A stretch of 39,006 bases of DNA from Candidatus Micrarchaeota archaeon CG1_02_51_15 (GTDB taxonomy: Archaea; Micrarchaeota; Micrarchaeia; Norongarragalinales; UBA8480), in contig MNVG01000042.1 of NCBI GenBank assembly GCA_001871495.1, positions 1 to 39,006 of the forward strand, in the 5' to 3' direction. Every line of letters starts with the position of its first letter. Positions within the stretch are counted from its first letter, which is position 1. Position numbers and translations under genes: made by a program. The notes under the pieces were generated by a model, which saw only the letters and a list, made by a program, of their open reading frames with translations, did not search any database and was not told where the DNA came from. Below are positions 12 through 20,294 of the stretch, one piece after another.

Positions 12-2738
12 CTAGCGTTTCTTATTATGCGAGTACATCCAGTACGCCACGCCTGCCGCAATCAAGACTATCACTACAATTATGGGCAACAGGTAGTCGG
101 AGCCGGCTTGCGCGACTTGGCCGCTAGAACCACGTGCAAGGTAGTCTCCGGCAGACCCTTTCGACGCAGGCTTTACAGCAGAGTACGGAGTGGGTTCAGG
201 CGTGGGCGCTGCAGGAACTGCGACCGGCGCGGCAAACTGCTGGATTACACTCTTGTCCATAGGCTTCATTACAATTGCCCTTACATTGAATTCCTGCCTA
301 GGCGCAAGGTTTACTTCGTCGTACTCGGCTATCACGCTTCCAGGCAGTACGCGCGAAGGCACGGGACTCAAGCTTATCAAGCCGTTCTGGTAGTCCGCGT
401 AGTCGAAAGGCATCCTGAAAGTCAACCTTCCTTGGAACCCGTTCGCACTCGCTTGATAGGAGACGGTGAACGAAGAACTAGTGGGCGTGAAAGTCCCTTG
501 TACTCGCGAGTTCTCGTCCAAACTCTGTTCCTGGCGTTCGGCAACAACAGGTTCAACAACTACTGCTTCTGTTTCAACAGACTCGGTGGCTTGAGTCGTT
601 GTCGGCAGTGCGTTAGTTCCGGTTGAAGACGAGGAAGACCCGCCGCTTGGACCGACCGATATCGACGAACTTGCGTAGACTGCAGTTCCTGTTACGGTTA
701 TAGTGTGCGTACATCCTGAGGAAACTGCGAATGAAGTATTGAAGAATCCGGTTGAATTGGCGTAAATCGTACCAGACGCACATCCGCTTAGCGTAAGTGA
801 AGCGTTATTCACCCCCGTGCCATTGCTGGAACCGTTGGCATAGGCATAATATACATAACCACTAATCCAAGTAGTTCCAGCAGACGTGAACGACCTGGGA
901 GCCACAGAGTAACTCGAAATATTATAAGTGTAGTTGTTCACTGAAACGTTGAATTGCTCCAATGTAAAGTTAGTGGAGTAGTTGTTCCAAAGCGAATCTC
1001 TTGCAGTTACATTCACCAAATAGTACTGGCCAGCAGTAATAAGTGACACGTTACACGCGTAGGTTGCTCCAGTTACCTGCGTAAGCGTACACGAAGAAGT
1101 ACTACTGTCGTTGTAGAACAACGCACTGCCCGAACTTATTGCAGTGCTTCCTGCATCTGTAAGGTTTACAGTAAATGAATAAGTTTGGGAGATGCCGCCC
1201 GCAGAAGGCGTAACGCTCGGAGATGAAGCCCCCGGACCCGTGTTATCCACTTGCAAGTCATAAACCATTGCAGTCGCGTTTTTCCCAGCCGAGTTGAATA
1301 CCAATAATCTTATTAAATAATTACCGTCTTGGTACTCGCTTGTGTTCCAAGTGGTTAAGAAAGAAGTGTTCGAAGTAGTGGAATTAATCAACGAGAAAAC
1401 ACGAGTCGTGTTTTCAACGGTAATGTTGTAGCTAGCGAATGTACCGCTTTGGTTATAAGCCGCGCCACTCACAGTAGCCAAGCCCGCATATGCTCCACTA
1501 GTAGGAACAGTAAGGGTCGAGACCAAGCCAGTATTGTTTACTTGAACCACTACCGTCGCGCTGTTAATATTGGATGCATTGTCAGTCACCGTAACATTAA
1601 GAGTGTAATACCCATCGGGAACCGCGCTAGTATTCCAATTAGTATAGTTTGAGGCAGAAACTGGTAGGTCGCCCGAATAGATTAAGTTCCACACTGACCC
1701 GGAAGTACCATAACGGTAATATACTGCATACCTACCGCCGTTCGTGTCGCTTGCCGAACCATTGACATGCACATAATCCCCGCTTACTATTTGCAATGAA
1801 GTCGGAGAAGTTACAGTTACGCTCGGATACGTATTATCCACCACGAGCATAGTCGTTGAGTTGTAGCCACGGTTTCCGGCTAGATCTGTCAACGTGACGT
1901 TTATCGACAAGTTAGCGTCATTACCATAAGAAGGAACAGTTATTGTGAAATTACAGAAAGTACTAGAATAGGTTGCATTGGCTACCGAAGTTCCATTAAT
2001 AAACGCTTCGCAAGAAGTGCTAGTGTTTACCGAATCATCAGTGATCGACGCATTTAGCACCAAGGTTGCGCCATTCTTGCGAATGGAAGCATTCAGATAA
2101 TAAGGCAGCAGAACAATAGGAGACGTGCTATCCAATTGTGCAACATATGAATCGTTGTAAGTCATATTGCCATAATGATCAGTCGCAGTCACGTTGATAG
2201 TGTAGTTACCATCAACTAATCCAGTAAGCGAATAGTTGTAATAACAGTAATAACCTGAAACCGTACTGTTTTGAGTGGCGCTAGCGCCGATTTTTATAGT
2301 GCAGTTAGTTACGTTCGATCCCGCATCCACTACTGACGCGTTTATCAGTACATATGACGTATTCTTGCTTGGAGTAGCATTAGAGTTGAGCAAGATTATT
2401 ACCGGGCCCGCCGTATCGAATCTGAAAGTGATATTTCCAGTAGTATTAGTATTGTTACTTGAATCGTTTGCCCACACGTTTATAGTGTGAAGCCCTTGGC
2501 TGATTGCCGCGAGCGAAATGTTCGCAACCAACGTAGTGTTTGCGCCGCCGTCAAGAGCATACCAAGTCGCGTTGATTCCACTTGCATCCGATGCCGAGTA
2601 ATTGAGGCTCGCGTAACTGATATTGGTATATATCAGATTTAAAGTCGGATTAGTTACCCACAATGAGGGAGACGTGCTATCTAATGATACTGAGTATGAA
2701 TCGTTGTAAGTGTGGTTGCTTGTAAGTGTGGTTGCCAT
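12..2738 (-). CDS. Giant surface glycoprotein, C-terminal part (frameshifted)
   Basis: This 908-residue frame is the continuation of the upstream surface-protein ORF. Its first residues (MATTLTS) lie in or beside the duplicated 16 bp, so its apparent start is probably an artefact of the frameshift. It contains at least five Ig-like repeats delimited by DSTSP, DTAGP and DNTYP motifs, dense glycosylation sequons, a Ser/Gly-rich low-complexity stretch around residues 690-705, a proline-rich segment near 840-850, and a C-terminal membrane anchor (DYLLPIIVVIVLIAAGVAY) followed by a basic tail ending KKR. It has no signal peptide of its own, so as an independent protein it could not be exported normally. 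Stop codon is TAG 11 bases from the window edge. Confidence 0.75.
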   Translation of the reverse strand: MATTLTSNHTYNDSYSVSLDSTSPSLWVTNPTLNLIYTNISYASLNYSASDASGINATWYALDGGANTTLVANISLAAISQGLHTINVWANDSSNNTNTTGNITFRFDTAGPVIILLNSNATPSKNTSYVLINASVVDAGSNVTNCTIKIGASATQNSTVSGYYCYYNYSLTGLVDGNYTINVTATDHYGNMTYNDSYVAQLDSTSPIVLLPYYLNASIRKNGATLVLNASITDDSVNTSTSCEAFINGTSVANATYSSTFCNFTITVPSYGNDANLSINVTLTDLAGNRGYNSTTMLVVDNTYPSVTVTSPTSLQIVSGDYVHVNGSASDTNGGRYAVYYRYGTSGSVWNLIYSGDLPVSASNYTNWNTSAVPDGYYTLNVTVTDNASNINSATVVVQVNNTGLVSTLTVPTSGAYAGLATVSGAAYNQSGTFASYNITVENTTRVFSLINSTTSNTSFLTTWNTSEYQDGNYLIRLLVFNSAGKNATAMVYDLQVDNTGPGASSPSVTPSAGGISQTYSFTVNLTDAGSTAISSGSALFYNDSSTSSCTLTQVTGATYACNVSLITAGQYYLVNVTARDSLWNNYSTNFTLEQFNVSVNNYTYNISSYSVAPRSFTSAGTTWISGYVYYAYANGSSNGTGVNNASLTLSGCASGTIYANSTGFFNTSFAVSSGCTHTITVTGTAVYASSSISVGPSGGSSSSSTGTNALPTTTQATESVETEAVVVEPVVAERQEQSLDENSRVQGTFTPTSSSFTVSYQASANGFQGRLTFRMPFDYADYQNGLISLSPVPSRVLPGSVIAEYDEVNLAPRQEFNVRAIVMKPMDKSVIQQFAAPVAVPAAPTPEPTPYSAVKPASKGSAGDYLARGSSGQVAQAGSDYLLPIIVVIVLIAAGVAYWMYSHNKKR

Positions 2739-4956
2739 AGTAGTCTATAGCGGTCACGTTAATCGTATAATTACCGCCAACAAAACCGGAAAGGTTATAC
2801 GTGGCATTACAATAACCTCCCGAAACGGTTCCCGCCATCAATGCATCCGCACCAACAGTAACATTACACGAAGTAACGTTCGACCCAGGCTCCGAAAGCG
2901 AAACATTCACATTCAAGGTAGACGAATTGGTAGCATTAGTCATATTCACCATAGCCATGGAAACAACAGGACCCCGACCATCCAAACGGAAAGTAATATT
3001 TCCAGTCGAATTTATGTTTCCGACAGAATCGTTTACCCACACGTTTATAGCATGGACTCCATCGGCAAAAGTGTAGAGGGAGATGTTCGAAGAGAGAGTA
3101 GTATTCGCGCCGCCGTCCAAGGAGTACCAAGTTGCATTGATTCCAATTGCATCGTATTCCGAGTGGTTCAAATAACGACCACCGACCATATTATAAATTA
3201 CCTCGTCGACTACCGGCGAGTATACCACGACATAGTTTGGTGCGGTTCCGTCTACTGTAAAATTCCTGCTTCCCGCACTGTTGTTCCAGTTGCCAGCATT
3301 ATCAGCCATTCTAACGTTTATCTCGTAAGTACGTTGGCCAGTATAGTTAACCATATTATTTACACACTCTGCACTCGAAGTACTGAGGTTGATGCACGAA
3401 AGGTTTTGTGCATCGAAATCAACCATCGTATTGTTTTGTACGTCTCTAACCGTTATGGCGAGCGTTGAAAGGTTTAATGAAGATCCGCCTACGGAGTATA
3501 GCGTTACGTTTAATGTCTGCAACCCGTCAGAATAATTTGCGGCAAAAGGAGTGTTGATAGTGGCGTTCGGAATGCCATCGTCATAACCCGTAATATTAAT
3601 CAAATAATTAATTTGCGTGCCGTTTATAAGTTGGCCCGGGAGAGTCACATTATAAGTAGCCGCCGAGGCGTTGCGGACTACGAAGGTATAGTTTTCACTA
3701 TGCAGGTTGGTGAACATACAGTAGCCGCCGACCGTAACATTGGACGAAACAACTGCGGATAGGCTGGTTGAATTGTAAGCATCTACGGTCTGACCCGTAA
3801 CTGCCGCATAGTAAATACCCGTGAGGTTAATCGTGATATTGTGAAGAGAGGTATCGAATACAGGGTCATTGCCCGACACTATATTTTGGTTATATGCGTC
3901 CAAGCGCGTGCTGATTATTATCGTGGCCGGAGATGCGTCATTTACGGGAGGGATATACTCGGTGACGTTAATGAATGTATATGCGACAATGTCATTAGTG
4001 ATGTTATATATTGGAAAACAGAACCCCAAGCCGGATGCGTTAACTGTCTTATTAGTTGCATTAAAGGCCGCTGGGTCGCTGTAATTAAGTGAAAAACATG
4101 CGCCTGCCTTGCTGCTGTTTATAGGCGAAGTATTATTTGAAACGAACACCGCAGAAATGTTATATCCGATCATATTTTGATACCAGAAATAGGGATTGCT
4201 CGGATCTGCAGGAGCCACCAAGTAGATTGAATTGAGATTTAGGGTGGCAACATCAGGCGTGCTCACGTTGCCAGTATAATTAACTGCCGTGTTGGTGCAG
4301 TTTCCCCCGCCTACGAAGGTAGTGCAGTTTGCGTCCGGGTTGGCATAAGCGTACATGTGAAGCGGAGAGGGGCTGTATTGACTTAGAACAGGAGAGAAAT
4401 TGAAGTAACTGGTAACGTTGAACTTCGGCGAATCGTTGTAGTTTTCAGCAACATAATAATCAGTCCTGAATTGCTTGACTTCGCCGCTCATCCAAGAGAA
4501 GTTGTTGTTGAACTGCCAGAAGAACATCGTGTGATTCTGGACCATTTTCCACGTGCCCGCATCAAGGATCAAAGTAGTTAAATTTATACTCGTATTAATC
4601 ACAGACCCCGAAATGTTCAGGTACTGCGAAAAATTGGCATCAAGGATAGGCAAATTGTTGTCTTGGATTACTGTGACATTAGTATATACCGTGCCATTTT
4701 TTCCGAAGTAACTGCAACGATCGTTCAAAGTAGATACGTTAACATTATGAGTTCCTAACGGAGTGATGACGGTTTCAGTATAGTTGGTTTCAGTGCAGGA
4801 CTGGGAGATTATCGCAGGGGAGGAGAACCCGCTTAGTATGAGGAGAAAGAACGACAGGCCGAGGAGGACGGAGAAGCTTTTTATAAAATTAGGTTTTTTA
4901 CTTGCGCGGTTATTGGCGCAATTATTCTGGCTATTATTGTTGTTTACTTTATTCAC
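2677..4956 (-). CDS. Giant surface glycoprotein, N-terminal part (frameshifted)
   Basis: This is the upstream 759-residue part of a large exported protein. It starts at GTG with an upstream GGAGA ribosome site on the minus strand (about 4962-4969). A charged, Asn-rich N-terminus is followed by a hydrophobic signal segment at about residues 29-50. The rest is rich in Asn-X-Ser/Thr sequons and beta-sandwich (Ig-like) repeats ending in motifs such as LDGRGP, typical of archaeal cell-surface proteins. From about residue 590 it shares a repeat unit with the downstream part (INATWYSLDGGANTT, then a GNITFR motif, then GNYTINVTA). The frame leaves homology just after GNHTY, exactly at a 16-bp tandem duplication, and ends in a short unrelated tail. 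Removing one copy joins it to the downstream ORF as a single 1642-residue protein. Its role as an envelope or adhesion protein is inferred from architecture only. Confidence 0.8.
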   Translation of the reverse strand: MNKVNNNNSQNNCANNRASKKPNFIKSFSVLLGLSFFLLILSGFSSPAIISQSCTETNYTETVITPLGTHNVNVSTLNDRCSYFGKNGTVYTNVTVIQDNNLPILDANFSQYLNISGSVINTSINLTTLILDAGTWKMVQNHTMFFWQFNNNFSWMSGEVKQFRTDYYVAENYNDSPKFNVTSYFNFSPVLSQYSPSPLHMYAYANPDANCTTFVGGGNCTNTAVNYTGNVSTPDVATLNLNSIYLVAPADPSNPYFWYQNMIGYNISAVFVSNNTSPINSSKAGACFSLNYSDPAAFNATNKTVNASGLGFCFPIYNITNDIVAYTFINVTEYIPPVNDASPATIIISTRLDAYNQNIVSGNDPVFDTSLHNITINLTGIYYAAVTGQTVDAYNSTSLSAVVSSNVTVGGYCMFTNLHSENYTFVVRNASAATYNVTLPGQLINGTQINYLINITGYDDGIPNATINTPFAANYSDGLQTLNVTLYSVGGSSLNLSTLAITVRDVQNNTMVDFDAQNLSCINLSTSSAECVNNMVNYTGQRTYEINVRMADNAGNWNNSAGSRNFTVDGTAPNYVVVYSPVVDEVIYNMVGGRYLNHSEYDAIGINATWYSLDGGANTTLSSNISLYTFADGVHAINVWVNDSVGNINSTGNITFRLDGRGPVVSMAMVNMTNATNSSTLNVNVSLSEPGSNVTSCNVTVGADALMAGTVSGGYCNATYNLSGFVGGNYTINVTAIDYYGNHTYKQPHLQRFILSIIR
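2704..2735. repeat. Perfect 16-bp tandem duplication causing frameshift
   Basis: Two adjacent identical copies of TTGTAAGTGTGGTTGC (plus strand, 2704-2719 and 2720-2735) lie inside the surface-protein gene. Sixteen is not a multiple of three. Deleting one copy makes 12-4956 a single frame of exactly 1643 codons, and restores YGNHTYNDSYSVSLDSTSP, which matches the paralogous repeat YGNMTYNDSYVAQLDSTSP elsewhere in the same protein. Confidence 0.95.
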
Positions 4957-8941: not shown

Positions 8942-9021
8942 GCGGAATAAACGCTTTTTTTTAATCCGCGCGTTTAAGTTAGGCAGGCCGTTTTATTTAG
9001 TTGCATTTTCAATAGCAGGTG

Positions 9022-10260
9022 ATGCAAGCCGTTTTGCGCCCTGAAGTAGTGGCGACTGCAAAAAAGAAGGGCTTTACCGAGCTTACGGGGATTCAACTGA
9101 AGGCTATTCCTGCAATAGCCGTAGGCTGGGATGTTTTGGTAATTGCGCCTACTGGTTTTGGAAAGAGCGAAACTGCTTTCCTTCCTATTCTTTCGAAACT
9201 CGTTGAAGCAAAAGAAGGGGGTAATGCAAACGGCATTCAAGCGATTTACATCACGCCGTTACGTGCTTTGAACCGCGACATGCTCGAGCGGCTTTCGTTT
9301 TGGTGCAAGGAACTTGGAATAACGCTGGGCGTGCGCCACGGCGACACGCCTTATTCCGAGCGCCGCAAGCAACGCGACAACCCTCCTCAGTTGATGATAA
9401 CCACTCCCGAGACGCTTGGAAGCATGCTTGTTGCGCCCAAGCTTAAGGACTCGCTTGCCAACGTGCGTTTTGTAGTGGTTGACGAAGTGCACGAACTGGC
9501 TTCAAGCAAACGCGGATTGCAGTTGTCGCTTTCTTTAGAACGCCTGCACGAAAAAAGCAGGGCGTTCCAGACAATAGGGTTGAGTGCGACTGTCGGCAAT
9601 GCCGGCGAAGTCGCAGCGTTCCTTTCGCCTTTAGCAAGAGTCGTCCGCACTGACGGCGCAAGGCAGTTGCAGCTCGTTGTCGAGTTCCCTTCCGAGAAGC
9701 CGGGAAAGGAAACCGCTGCAAAAGCGGAGTTGATTGCGCGTTTGATAGACGAACACAAGAAAACGCTGTTGTTTGTTAACACGCGTTCGTTTGCCGAAGG
9801 CATGGGTTCGTTGCTTTCGTTAATTCCGTCACTTAAGGGCAAAATCGCAGTGCACCACTCTTCTCTTTCGAAAGACGCGCGTGTTGAAACCGAAGACCGT
9901 TTTAAGCACGGGAAACTCAAGGCGATCGTCTGCACTTCGTCTTTGGAACTGGGGATAGACGTTGGCGACGTGGATTTGGTTATCCAATACGTTTCGCCCC
10001 GCCAAACAAGCAGGTTAGTGCAACGCGTTGGCCGCAGCGGCCACTGCAGGCACTTGGCACCCAAGGGAGTGGTTGTTGCAGTTGACGCGTTGGATGCCGC
10101 AGAATGCGCGGTAGTAGCGCGCAAGGCGGTTGCCAACGAGCTCGAGCCTATTGCGAGCCTATTGCAATACGCAAGAATGCTTTGGACGTGCTGGCGCACG
10201 CGGTTGCCGGCATCGCTTTGGACTTCGGTTCCGTTACTGCTGAAAAAGCCTTCGGGATAG
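9022..10260 (+). CDS. Lhr-type ATP-dependent helicase, N-terminal part (frameshifted)
   Basis: This part holds the two RecA-like domains of an Lhr-family superfamily 2 DNA helicase. Walker A is APTGFGKSE near residue 42, the Walker B box is DEVHEL near 157, motif III is SATVGN near 193, and motif VI is QRVGRSGH near 338. The ATG at 9022 follows AGGTG closely and is preferred to the overlapping GTG. Homology ends at ANELEPI, where an 11-bp tandem duplication throws the frame, and the remaining roughly 38 residues are out-of-frame nonsense. Correcting the duplication and one TGA gives a 917-residue protein, near the usual length of archaeal Lhr proteins. As it stands the product would keep the motor but lose the winged-helix and C-terminal modules. 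Confidence 0.85.
   Translation: MQAVLRPEVVATAKKKGFTELTGIQLKAIPAIAVGWDVLVIAPTGFGKSETAFLPILSKLVEAKEGGNANGIQAIYITPLRALNRDMLERLSFWCKELGITLGVRHGDTPYSERRKQRDNPPQLMITTPETLGSMLVAPKLKDSLANVRFVVVDEVHELASSKRGLQLSLSLERLHEKSRAFQTIGLSATVGNAGEVAAFLSPLARVVRTDGARQLQLVVEFPSEKPGKETAAKAELIARLIDEHKKTLLFVNTRSFAEGMGSLLSLIPSLKGKIAVHHSSLSKDARVETEDRFKHGKLKAIVCTSSLELGIDVGDVDLVIQYVSPRQTSRLVQRVGRSGHCRHLAPKGVVVAVDALDAAECAVVARKAVANELEPIASLLQYARMLWTCWRTRLPASLWTSVPLLLKKPSG
10143..10165. repeat. Perfect 11-bp tandem duplication in the helicase gene
   Basis: CGAGCCTATTG is repeated without spacing (10143-10153 and 10154-10164; the 23rd base extends the repeat). Eleven is not a multiple of three. Removing one copy restores ELEPIAIRKNALDVLAHAV, the expected Lhr junction between the second RecA domain and the winged helix. 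Confidence 0.95.
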
Positions 10261-10538
10261 TCACTCGCGCGTGGCCTTTTGCTTCACTGGCTCATGAAGA
10301 CTTTGATTCCGTGCTTTTACAGCTTGCCCTCTGGCGCATCATCTCGTTGAAAGAAGGCGTGATTTCAAAGCGTTTGCGCACGTTGTTGTACTACTACGAA
10401 AACTTGAGCACGATTCCGGATGAGAAAAGGTTTTTCGTAATCGACGCGGCAACCCGCAAGCACGTTGCAGTGCTGCACGAGGAATTCGTTTCCTCCCTTT
10501 CTCCGGGCGGTACGTTCATTGCCCGCGGAAGGCCCTGA
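10145..10538 (+). pseudogene. Lhr-type helicase, middle fragment ending in a TGA for Trp
   Basis: This frame continues the helicase from EPIAIRKNALDVLAHAVAG to FIARGRP. It covers the winged-helix region (LDVLAHAV, GIVTRAWPFASL, LLYYYENLSTIPDEKRF). It has no start of its own at the true boundary. It stops at TGA (10536-10538), exactly where Lhr proteins have the Trp of a G-R-P-W-[RK]-V motif; a single base change TGG to TGA explains this. The sequence after the stop continues in the same frame (RVLDLQDQELIAE). Confidence 0.8.
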
Positions 10539-10544
10539 CGCGTT

Positions 10545-11786
10545 TTGGACCTTCAAGACCAGGAGTTGATTGCCGAGCGGACCGACGATGCATCGGCTGC
10601 GATTCCCGAGTGGGAAGGCGAACGGATTCCCGTGCCTAATTCAATTGCGCAAGAGACTGCGGAACTTCTTGCTTTATTTTTTAGACCCGTTGAAGCATGG
10701 CTCAAACGAGGGTATTTGCTTTCGGACGTTGCTGTATATAGGCTCCAATGGTTTGCTTTGCGCCAGAAAAACGCGTTCGTCCCTTCGCCCCGCGCATTGG
10801 TTGCAGAGTCGTTTGGAAACTTCATAATCCTGCATTCGTTCAACGGCAGCAAGGCAAACGCCTGCCTTGCCCACGTGCTCTCGGCACTGCTTTCGGCTTC
10901 AATCGGTTCGTCAGTGCGTAGCCGGCCCTCGGCTTACCTGATTGCATTCGAGTTCCCAAAACCGTATCCGGTGCAAAGGTTTGTTGCAATCCTGCACGAA
11001 CTCACACCCGAAAACACTGAAAAAATATTGCTTAATACTCTGCCAAAGACCTCGTTGTTTCTCTTCCGTTTCCTGCATGCCGCAAAACGAAGTGGTTTCA
11101 TATCCAAAGACGCGCAACTGCATGCGCTTAGCCTGCAGCGGATTGTCGAGACCCAAAAAGACTCGCTGGCCTATCGCGAAGCATTTGCGGAACTGTTGCA
11201 TGACAAGTTTGCCGTTTCGGAAGTCGCGGAATTGATTTCCGGCCTGCGCTCGCACGAAATAACCTTGCAGACCCACGACGCGGACGCAAAAAAGCTTTCG
11301 TCGCTTGCCAAAGACTTCCTGGAATTCACCGGTTACGGCGAACTCTTCGCGCCGCCCGAACCGACTGCGCAAATAGTGCAGGCATTCAAAGACAACCTTC
11401 TTCTGAAAAAAACCGAGCTAGCCTGCGCCCACTGCGCCAAAAAATTTTCGCGCAAACTAAGCGAAGTGCCCCCAGAACCAATTTGTCCCTACTGCTTGTC
11501 GTCTCAAGTAACCTTGGGCAAGTACGCCGAAGTACTTGAAAAAAAGGCAGGCCGCAAAACCCTTTCCGTATCCGAACGCGCCCAATACAAAGAGGCCCTT
11601 AGGGTTGCTTCGCTTTCAAACGCATACGGCCGCAAGGCAATAGAAGCGCTCGAAACCTATGGAGTCGGACCCGAAACAGCTGCGCGCGTGCTCAAAAACC
11701 TCAGGCAAACCGACGAAGACTATTACTCCGATCTTCTCGAAGCGCAAAAGAATTTTGTGCGCACCAAAAAATACTGGCGGGCCTGA
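10545..11786 (+). CDS. Lhr-type helicase, C-terminal part with zinc ribbon
   Basis: This is the remainder of the helicase gene, in the same frame as the middle fragment and separated from it only by TGA and one codon. It begins at a TTG that would serve only if translation restarts. It contains the Lhr C-terminal region and, near residues 295-325, a four-cysteine zinc-ribbon-like pattern (CAHC ... CPYC), followed by a basic helical tail ending TKKYWRA. Codon use matches the flanking genes and there are no further lesions. Whether it is made as a separate protein is unknown. Confidence 0.75.
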   Translation: MDLQDQELIAERTDDASAAIPEWEGERIPVPNSIAQETAELLALFFRPVEAWLKRGYLLSDVAVYRLQWFALRQKNAFVPSPRALVAESFGNFIILHSFNGSKANACLAHVLSALLSASIGSSVRSRPSAYLIAFEFPKPYPVQRFVAILHELTPENTEKILLNTLPKTSLFLFRFLHAAKRSGFISKDAQLHALSLQRIVETQKDSLAYREAFAELLHDKFAVSEVAELISGLRSHEITLQTHDADAKKLSSLAKDFLEFTGYGELFAPPEPTAQIVQAFKDNLLLKKTELACAHCAKKFSRKLSEVPPEPICPYCLSSQVTLGKYAEVLEKKAGRKTLSVSERAQYKEALRVASLSNAYGRKAIEALETYGVGPETAARVLKNLRQTDEDYYSDLLEAQKNFVRTKKYWRA

Positions 11787-11831: not shown

Positions 11832-12260
11832 ATGCCCCGGTCAAAACAATACGAACAGCCAGTCCAAAACGAGGAATCCGCCCTTCAAAACCACGGTCAA
11901 ATAGGAGTTCCTTATTCATCGGGCCATAACGAGGCATTCCAATCCAACGTAATGCGCGGAATTGCAGCCACCATTCTACTAATAGCAATAGGTTCTACAG
12001 CCTACCACTTCATTGAAGGCTGGAGCTGGATCGATTCAATCTACTTTTCTTCAACAACTCTGACTACCGTCGGTTTCGGCGACATGCACCCTACCCACGA
12101 CGTGTCGAAAATATTCACTGTATTTTTTGTATTCGCAGGCGTTTCAGTTGTCTTTTATACCATCACCAAACTCGGCGCTTACTCAGTAGAACAACGGCTG
12201 CGCCCGCCGTGGGTTCCCAGGCTCTTGAAAGCCGACAAACACGAACTCCTCAAACGCTAG
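11832..12260 (+). CDS. Two-transmembrane potassium channel
   Basis: This 142-residue protein has a hydrophilic N-terminus of about 40 residues, a first membrane helix (GIAATILLIAIGSTAYHF), a pore loop with the K+ selectivity filter TLTTVGFGD at about residues 77-85, and a second helix (IFTVFFVFAGVSVVFYTI). It forms a tetrameric K+-conducting pore in the membrane. It ends soon after the second helix and has no attached RCK/TrkA domain, so gating must come from elsewhere. A TATA-like CTTATATCC about 30 bases before the ATG suggests a leaderless message. Confidence 0.9.
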   Translation: MPRSKQYEQPVQNEESALQNHGQIGVPYSSGHNEAFQSNVMRGIAATILLIAIGSTAYHFIEGWSWIDSIYFSSTTLTTVGFGDMHPTHDVSKIFTVFFVFAGVSVVFYTITKLGAYSVEQRLRPPWVPRLLKADKHELLKR

Positions 12261-19019: not shown

Positions 19020-20294
19020 ATGGCTGGAAAACCGCACTTGAACTTGATTTTCACGGGTCACGTAGACCACGGAAAGTCCACTCTCGTTGGAAGAGTATTG
19101 TACGACACCGGAGCGCTTTCCGAAAACGACTTGCGCAAGCTCAAGGAAGAGGCAGCCAAAGTAGGCAAGGCCACTTTCGAATTCGCTTTTGCCATGGACG
19201 ACTTGAAGGAAGAACGCGAACGCGGAGTCACTATCGACATTGCGCACAAGGACTTCAACACCCAAAAGTATTACTTTACTATAATTGACGCGCCTGGCCA
19301 CAAGGACTTCGTCAAGAACATGATTACCGGCGCTTCGCAAGCCGACGCCGCAGTGCTCGTGTGCTCTGCCAAAGAAGGCGTGCAGGCGCAAACTGTTGAA
19401 CACGCTTTCCTGTTGAAGGTGCTCGGAGTACAACAGTTCATTATTGCCATTAACAAGATGGACGCAGTCAACTACGACCGCATCAAGTACGAGGAGACCA
19501 AGCAGGCTCTTATTGCAAAGATAAAGCCCATGGGTTACAAGACCGACGAGCTTCCTTTCATCCCCACCAGCGCTTATGAAGGCGCCAACGTGGCGAAGAA
19601 AAGCGATAAGACCCCCTGGTATTCAGGTCCTACTCTCACTGAAGCATTCGACTTGCTCAAGGAGCCTTCGAAGCCTTTGGACAAGCCATTGCGTCTTCCC
19701 ATCCAGGAAGTATTTACTATCACCGGACAAGGAACCGTGCCCGTTGGCCGTGTTGAATCGGGAATACTCAAGCCCAACACTACGATTATAATCGAGCCCG
19801 AGCACTTGACGGGCGAAGTAAAGAGCATTGAAATGCACCACAAGACGCTCGAACAGGCTATTCCGGGAGACAACGTCGGCTTTGCACTCAAGGGAATCGA
19901 CAAGAAGGCAATAACCCGCGGATCCGTCGCCGGAACGCCCAACAGTCCGCCGACTGTTGCCGAAGAGTTCACTGCACAATTGGTCGTGCTCAACCACCCG
20001 ACTGCAATCGGAAAGAACTACACCCCCGTGTTTCACATACACACTGCACAGCTCGCTTGCACCATAACCGAAATAATGGAAAAGAAGGATCCCAAGACTG
20101 GAGCAACCGCGCAGAAGAACCCTGACTTCATTAAGACCGGCGACATGGCAATAGTAAAAATCAAGCCCACTCGCCCGGTAGTAATTGAAACGTACAAGGA
20201 CTTCCCGGCACTCGGAAGGTTTGCCATCCGTGACATGGGACAAACCGTTGCAGCAGGAGTAGTCCTGACCGTAACGCCTCGTAAATCCGCTTAA
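19020..20294 (+). CDS. tuf: Translation elongation factor 1-alpha
   Basis: GTP-dependent carrier of aminoacyl-tRNA to the ribosome. G-domain motifs are GHVDHGKST (residues 14-22), DAPGHKDF near 91 and NKMD near 146, followed by the two beta-barrel domains. 424 residues is the normal archaeal length. ATG with GGAGG upstream (about 19003-19007). The leader region 18755-19019 holds a TATA-like TTTTTTAAAC near 18825-18835 but no other gene I can support. It is followed by S10, the conserved archaeal order. Confidence 0.97.
   Translation: MAGKPHLNLIFTGHVDHGKSTLVGRVLYDTGALSENDLRKLKEEAAKVGKATFEFAFAMDDLKEERERGVTIDIAHKDFNTQKYYFTIIDAPGHKDFVKNMITGASQADAAVLVCSAKEGVQAQTVEHAFLLKVLGVQQFIIAINKMDAVNYDRIKYEETKQALIAKIKPMGYKTDELPFIPTSAYEGANVAKKSDKTPWYSGPTLTEAFDLLKEPSKPLDKPLRLPIQEVFTITGQGTVPVGRVESGILKPNTTIIIEPEHLTGEVKSIEMHHKTLEQAIPGDNVGFALKGIDKKAITRGSVAGTPNSPPTVAEEFTAQLVVLNHPTAIGKNYTPVFHIHTAQLACTITEIMEKKDPKTGATAQKNPDFIKTGDMAIVKIKPTRPVVIETYKDFPALGRFAIRDMGQTVAAGVVLTVTPRKSA

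Follow-up and report, generated by a model that had tools for sequence, protein, structure and literature searches.

The window, by which we mean the whole stretch of 39,006 nucleotides that was analysed, begins with what was formerly one long minus-strand gene (12-4956) for an Ig-repeat surface protein. This gene is now split in two by a perfect tandem duplication, and the window also contains a helicase gene with a lesion of the same type. The features concerned are the following:

2677 to 4956, minus strand: N-terminal half of the surface-protein gene (759 aa), with a signal-like segment, a unique region and Ig-like repeats
12 to 2738, minus strand: C-terminal half of the surface-protein gene (908 aa), with Ig-like repeats and a membrane-anchor module
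2704 to 2735, no strand assigned: TTGTAAGTGTGGTTGC in two perfect tandem copies of 16 bp, shifting the frame
9019 to 11786, plus strand: Lhr-type helicase pseudogene in three ORFs, with an 11-bp duplication and a TGA at 10536-10538
10143 to 10165, no strand assigned: perfect 11-bp tandem duplication in the Lhr gene, CGAGCCTATTG twice plus one base

The two 16-bp copies lie back to back (2704-2719 and 2720-2735), are 100% identical and were scored by the tandem-repeat scan as 2.0 copies of the unit. A 39-kb window should contain only ~9e-6 (about 1e-5) exact 16-bp tandems by chance, and chance is no explanation for the duplication. An earlier note on this DNA had described two adjacent identical 16-mers that shift the frame in mid-repeat, and both copies as well as the frame break were indeed located at 2704-2735. 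Its further claim, that removal of one copy leaves 1643 codons over 12-4956, agrees with arithmetic on the span, since 4945 bases minus 16 give 4929, or 3 x 1643, and with the stop counted among them these 1643 codons correspond to the 1642 residues that it had stated. The N-terminal ORF crosses the repeat and stops ~25 bases beyond it, the C-terminal ORF starts from an ATG at 2738 that immediately adjoins the repeat, and the two frames overlap by 62 bases. Also as claimed, the single-copy junction has a counterpart in an internal paralogous repeat: YYGN-HTYNDSY...LDSTSP aligns with HYGN-MTYNDSY...LDSTSP (82% over 44 nt), and at the protein level the match to the neighbouring internal repeat is 51% over ~188 aa. 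Because the junction is matched in this way, the single-copy form is the older one. The N-terminal part has no further stop in its frame, and apart from the 16-bp duplication the 4.9-kb gene has no lesion and remains open, which fits a recent loss but would equally fit a switchable gene.

The overlap of the two frames, together with the ATG at 2738, would suit an arrangement in which both halves are still used, either by ribosomal frameshifting at the overlap or by a restart at this ATG, giving a full-length or a two-piece protein. However, no slippery heptamer or programmed-frameshift motif is present within 2671-2760, so that read-through by programmed frameshifting is unlikely. Moreover, no hairpin was found at 2704-2735, where the fold is not stronger than that of shuffled sequences (calculated for the plus strand only, with DNA parameters). 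The C-terminal half also lacks a signal peptide, and in the original gene its ATG stood out of frame. Continued use of both halves is hence, in our judgement, very improbable.

The repeats of the surface protein are of the Big_13 type, while its match to an OmpL47-type domain stays below threshold. Judged by eye, a hydrophobic, signal-like stretch lies close to the N-terminus and the C-terminus carries a transmembrane segment, which bears out the assignment in the earlier note of a signal peptide to the N-terminal half and a membrane anchor to the C-terminal half. The last 299 residues have matches in 10 other genomes of the order, and in 9 of 9 inspected genomes this C-terminal module closes an open frame, with a hydrophobic, transmembrane-like segment coming after it. 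Since the module closes open frames in this manner elsewhere, the sequence comparison supports the view that the two halves once formed a single exported, anchored protein. The module itself (12-911, minus strand, ~300 aa), with a motif around 'FDYADYQNGLI' ahead of its transmembrane end, is common to surface proteins from many genomes of the order and matches no Pfam or NCBIfam model.

Of the surface protein, other members of the order share only this module. Nothing in 29 genomes of the order matches the unique N-terminal part, and a search of relatives gave weak Ig-domain matches only, with no ortholog in genus or order. For this reason, dating the duplication from one-copy orthologs is impossible. 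In the other genome of the genus (G001, n=1) the surface gene is absent from the syntenic position next to the S-adenosylmethionine synthetase gene. A scan of genome contigs with the surface gene, and likewise one with the Lhr query, returned no relative; the same genome has no second copy of the surface locus, and the site sequence of 2704-2735 does not occur in viral contigs.

About 7 kb from the surface-gene duplication, the tandem-repeat scan found that the 11-bp duplication in the Lhr gene also shifts the frame. The DEAD/Helicase_C, WH_Lhr and DEAD_assoc parts of this protein are spread over the three ORFs, and 18 pairs of protein queries taken from relatives put the frame break within 10128-10185, where the duplication lies. 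A nonsense TGA at 10536-10538 forms the second break; G001, whose Lhr protein aligns through both breaks, has a tryptophan there. The C-terminal part of Lhr is matched in 48 of 60 relatives, mostly by open frames of ~850-1040 codons and by a few shorter ones. The Lhr gene is a pseudogene in which two lesions arose independently, one of them of the same type as that in the surface gene, and because of the nonsense lesion simple reversal of the duplication would not suffice to restore it.

Similar duplications were counted across this genome and its relatives, using sampled stretches of this genome with a contig-end duplication omitted, and excluding all-N stretches of G001 from the base counts. 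Perfect non-triplet duplications of at least 11 bp number 6 in 803 kb here and 4 in 1.03 Mb of relatives, so that the density is similar to that of related genomes. Early samples had hinted that short duplications are in excess here, but no difference was left once more control genomes were included. The other two-copy duplications of this genome measure 11, 16 and 19 bp, and those inside genes affect, besides the surface protein and Lhr, a relic of an AEC-type transporter and, judged by eye, a probable methyltransferase; others precede a DUF6498 gene or fall within a kinase-like ORF. In the transporter relic (Mem_trans; locus L026, contig C25, 4428-5472), which has several stops and frame breaks, one frame break coincides with a perfect 11-bp tandem duplication at 4855-4876. 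In the probable methyltransferase (L117, contig C36, 11884-12384), again by eye, a perfect 19-bp duplication at 12058-12096 lies at a frame break, and another frame break follows downstream. The duplicated units have no sequence in common, and their microhomology amounts to 0 or 1 base; at the ends of the 16-bp duplication there is none, the run length being equal to the period. Being unlike each other and nearly devoid of microhomology, these units point away from a recombinase site and from a prepared slippage tract.

It is conceivable that the second 16-bp copy is an artefact of assembly or consensus, the cell having a single copy and the assembler having joined overlapping ends or merged strain variants. 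The draft genome is fragmented into 56 contigs, and the window is one entire contig that ends 11 bases past the surface gene. Such an origin would also agree with the presence here of several gene-breaking two-copy duplications of differing length, given that none of the duplication sites in the control genomes clearly breaks a gene, although these numbers are small. On the other hand, Lhr and the transporter relic have independent second lesions, such as stop codons, which joining of overlaps does not make, and related assemblies contain similar duplications; for these reasons we regard an assembly error at 2704-2735 as less likely than a real mutation, and overall as rather unlikely. A generally indel-ridden assembly could be ruled out, since frameshifts in conserved coding DNA are rare: a survey of 251 kb revealed 5 sites, 3 of them on one contig (L116), and a smaller survey found 0 in 117 kb. 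The in-frame stop counts of the larger survey were left unused because they were contaminated by antisense shadow ORFs. In the window, the EF-1A gene (19020-20294) has an archaeal-type EF-1alpha as its best match, which identifies the host as an archaeon.

Taken together, these observations lead us to consider it probable that a spontaneous and recent 16-bp tandem duplication knocked out a large Ig-repeat surface protein, as one of several such events in dispensable genes of this lineage. The duplication would be of recent date, having arisen either in this genome or in the strain that dominated the sampled population, and by breaking the frame it would have abolished the anchored protein. As predicted from the sequence, the likely product is a truncated, secretable N-terminal fragment of 759 residues that has no anchor, while the C-terminal half, having no signal peptide, would be either untranslated or not exported. 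As is to be expected of an ordinary spontaneous duplication, there is no special sequence at the site and the same type of lesion is found in unrelated genes. Wild-type Sulfolobus acidocaldarius has yielded 163 spontaneous pyrE mutations, 13 of which (8%) were tandem duplications exceeding 5 bp (PMC7785828). The surface-gene lesion resembles these in being an archaeal, gene-inactivating tandem duplication longer than 5 bp; however, the pyrE mutations were measured in culture under selection (PMC7785828), whereas ours is a single sighting in a draft genome. As an ordinary mutation, the duplication would have little significance.

The earlier note had proposed a reversible switch, that is, slipped-strand phase variation between an anchored full-length and a truncated secreted form. 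On this view a small-genome archaeon would maintain both states of a giant surface protein in its population. The surface nature of the product and the open remainder of the gene would be in keeping with this, and slipped-strand reversal of 2704-2735 is possible in principle. Bacterial simple-sequence contingency loci consist of many short units or homopolymer tracts. The surface gene resembles them in that a tandem repeat changes the frame of a surface-protein gene, but it has one 16-bp unit, twice, with no array of several short units or long homopolymer at 2704-2735. Nor are the duplications of this genome concentrated in surface or modification genes, small as the numbers are: no repeat was found at other surface genes, and the genes hit by this type of lesion include the helicase gene, the transporter relic and the probable methyltransferase.

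A closer parallel is offered by the pneumococcal capsule genes cap3A, cap8E and tts, whose two-copy intragenic duplications are described in two reports as able to revert and to cause phase variation (PMC4243769, PMC4022640). These are likewise two-copy tandem duplications within the ORF of a surface-related gene; reversion was observed there, whereas for the surface gene only the two-copy allele is known. For a 9-bp insertion one of these reports puts reversion at no more than ~1e-5 (PMC4022640). Without microhomology this exact duplication would seldom be recreated from a single copy, and switching would therefore be mostly one-way. With two copies only, no second allele in the same genome or in viral contigs, no ortholog and the same lesion in the helicase gene, the switch is not supported, and we give it only a small chance of being right; a better fit is offered by the other two options that the earlier note named, fixed mutation and assembly error. 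The helicase lesion 7 kb away also counsels caution before one broken frame in a draft genome is taken for phase variation. A recent review states that the distribution of phase-variable loci in archaea is yet to be explored (PMC11868660), and if both states were seen in the reads of one population, the locus would provide an example of archaeal surface phase variation by duplication.

Two further sites in this genome deserve mention in their own right. The DUF6498 membrane-protein gene (L022, contig C17, 3396-4097, minus strand) has an internal stop, and a 19-bp tandem duplication in its start-codon region adds an upstream ATG. At the start of contig C35 (L116, 1-2022) there is a 94-bp tandem duplication, which is possibly an assembly end effect, and genes on this contig show several frame breaks relative to G001.
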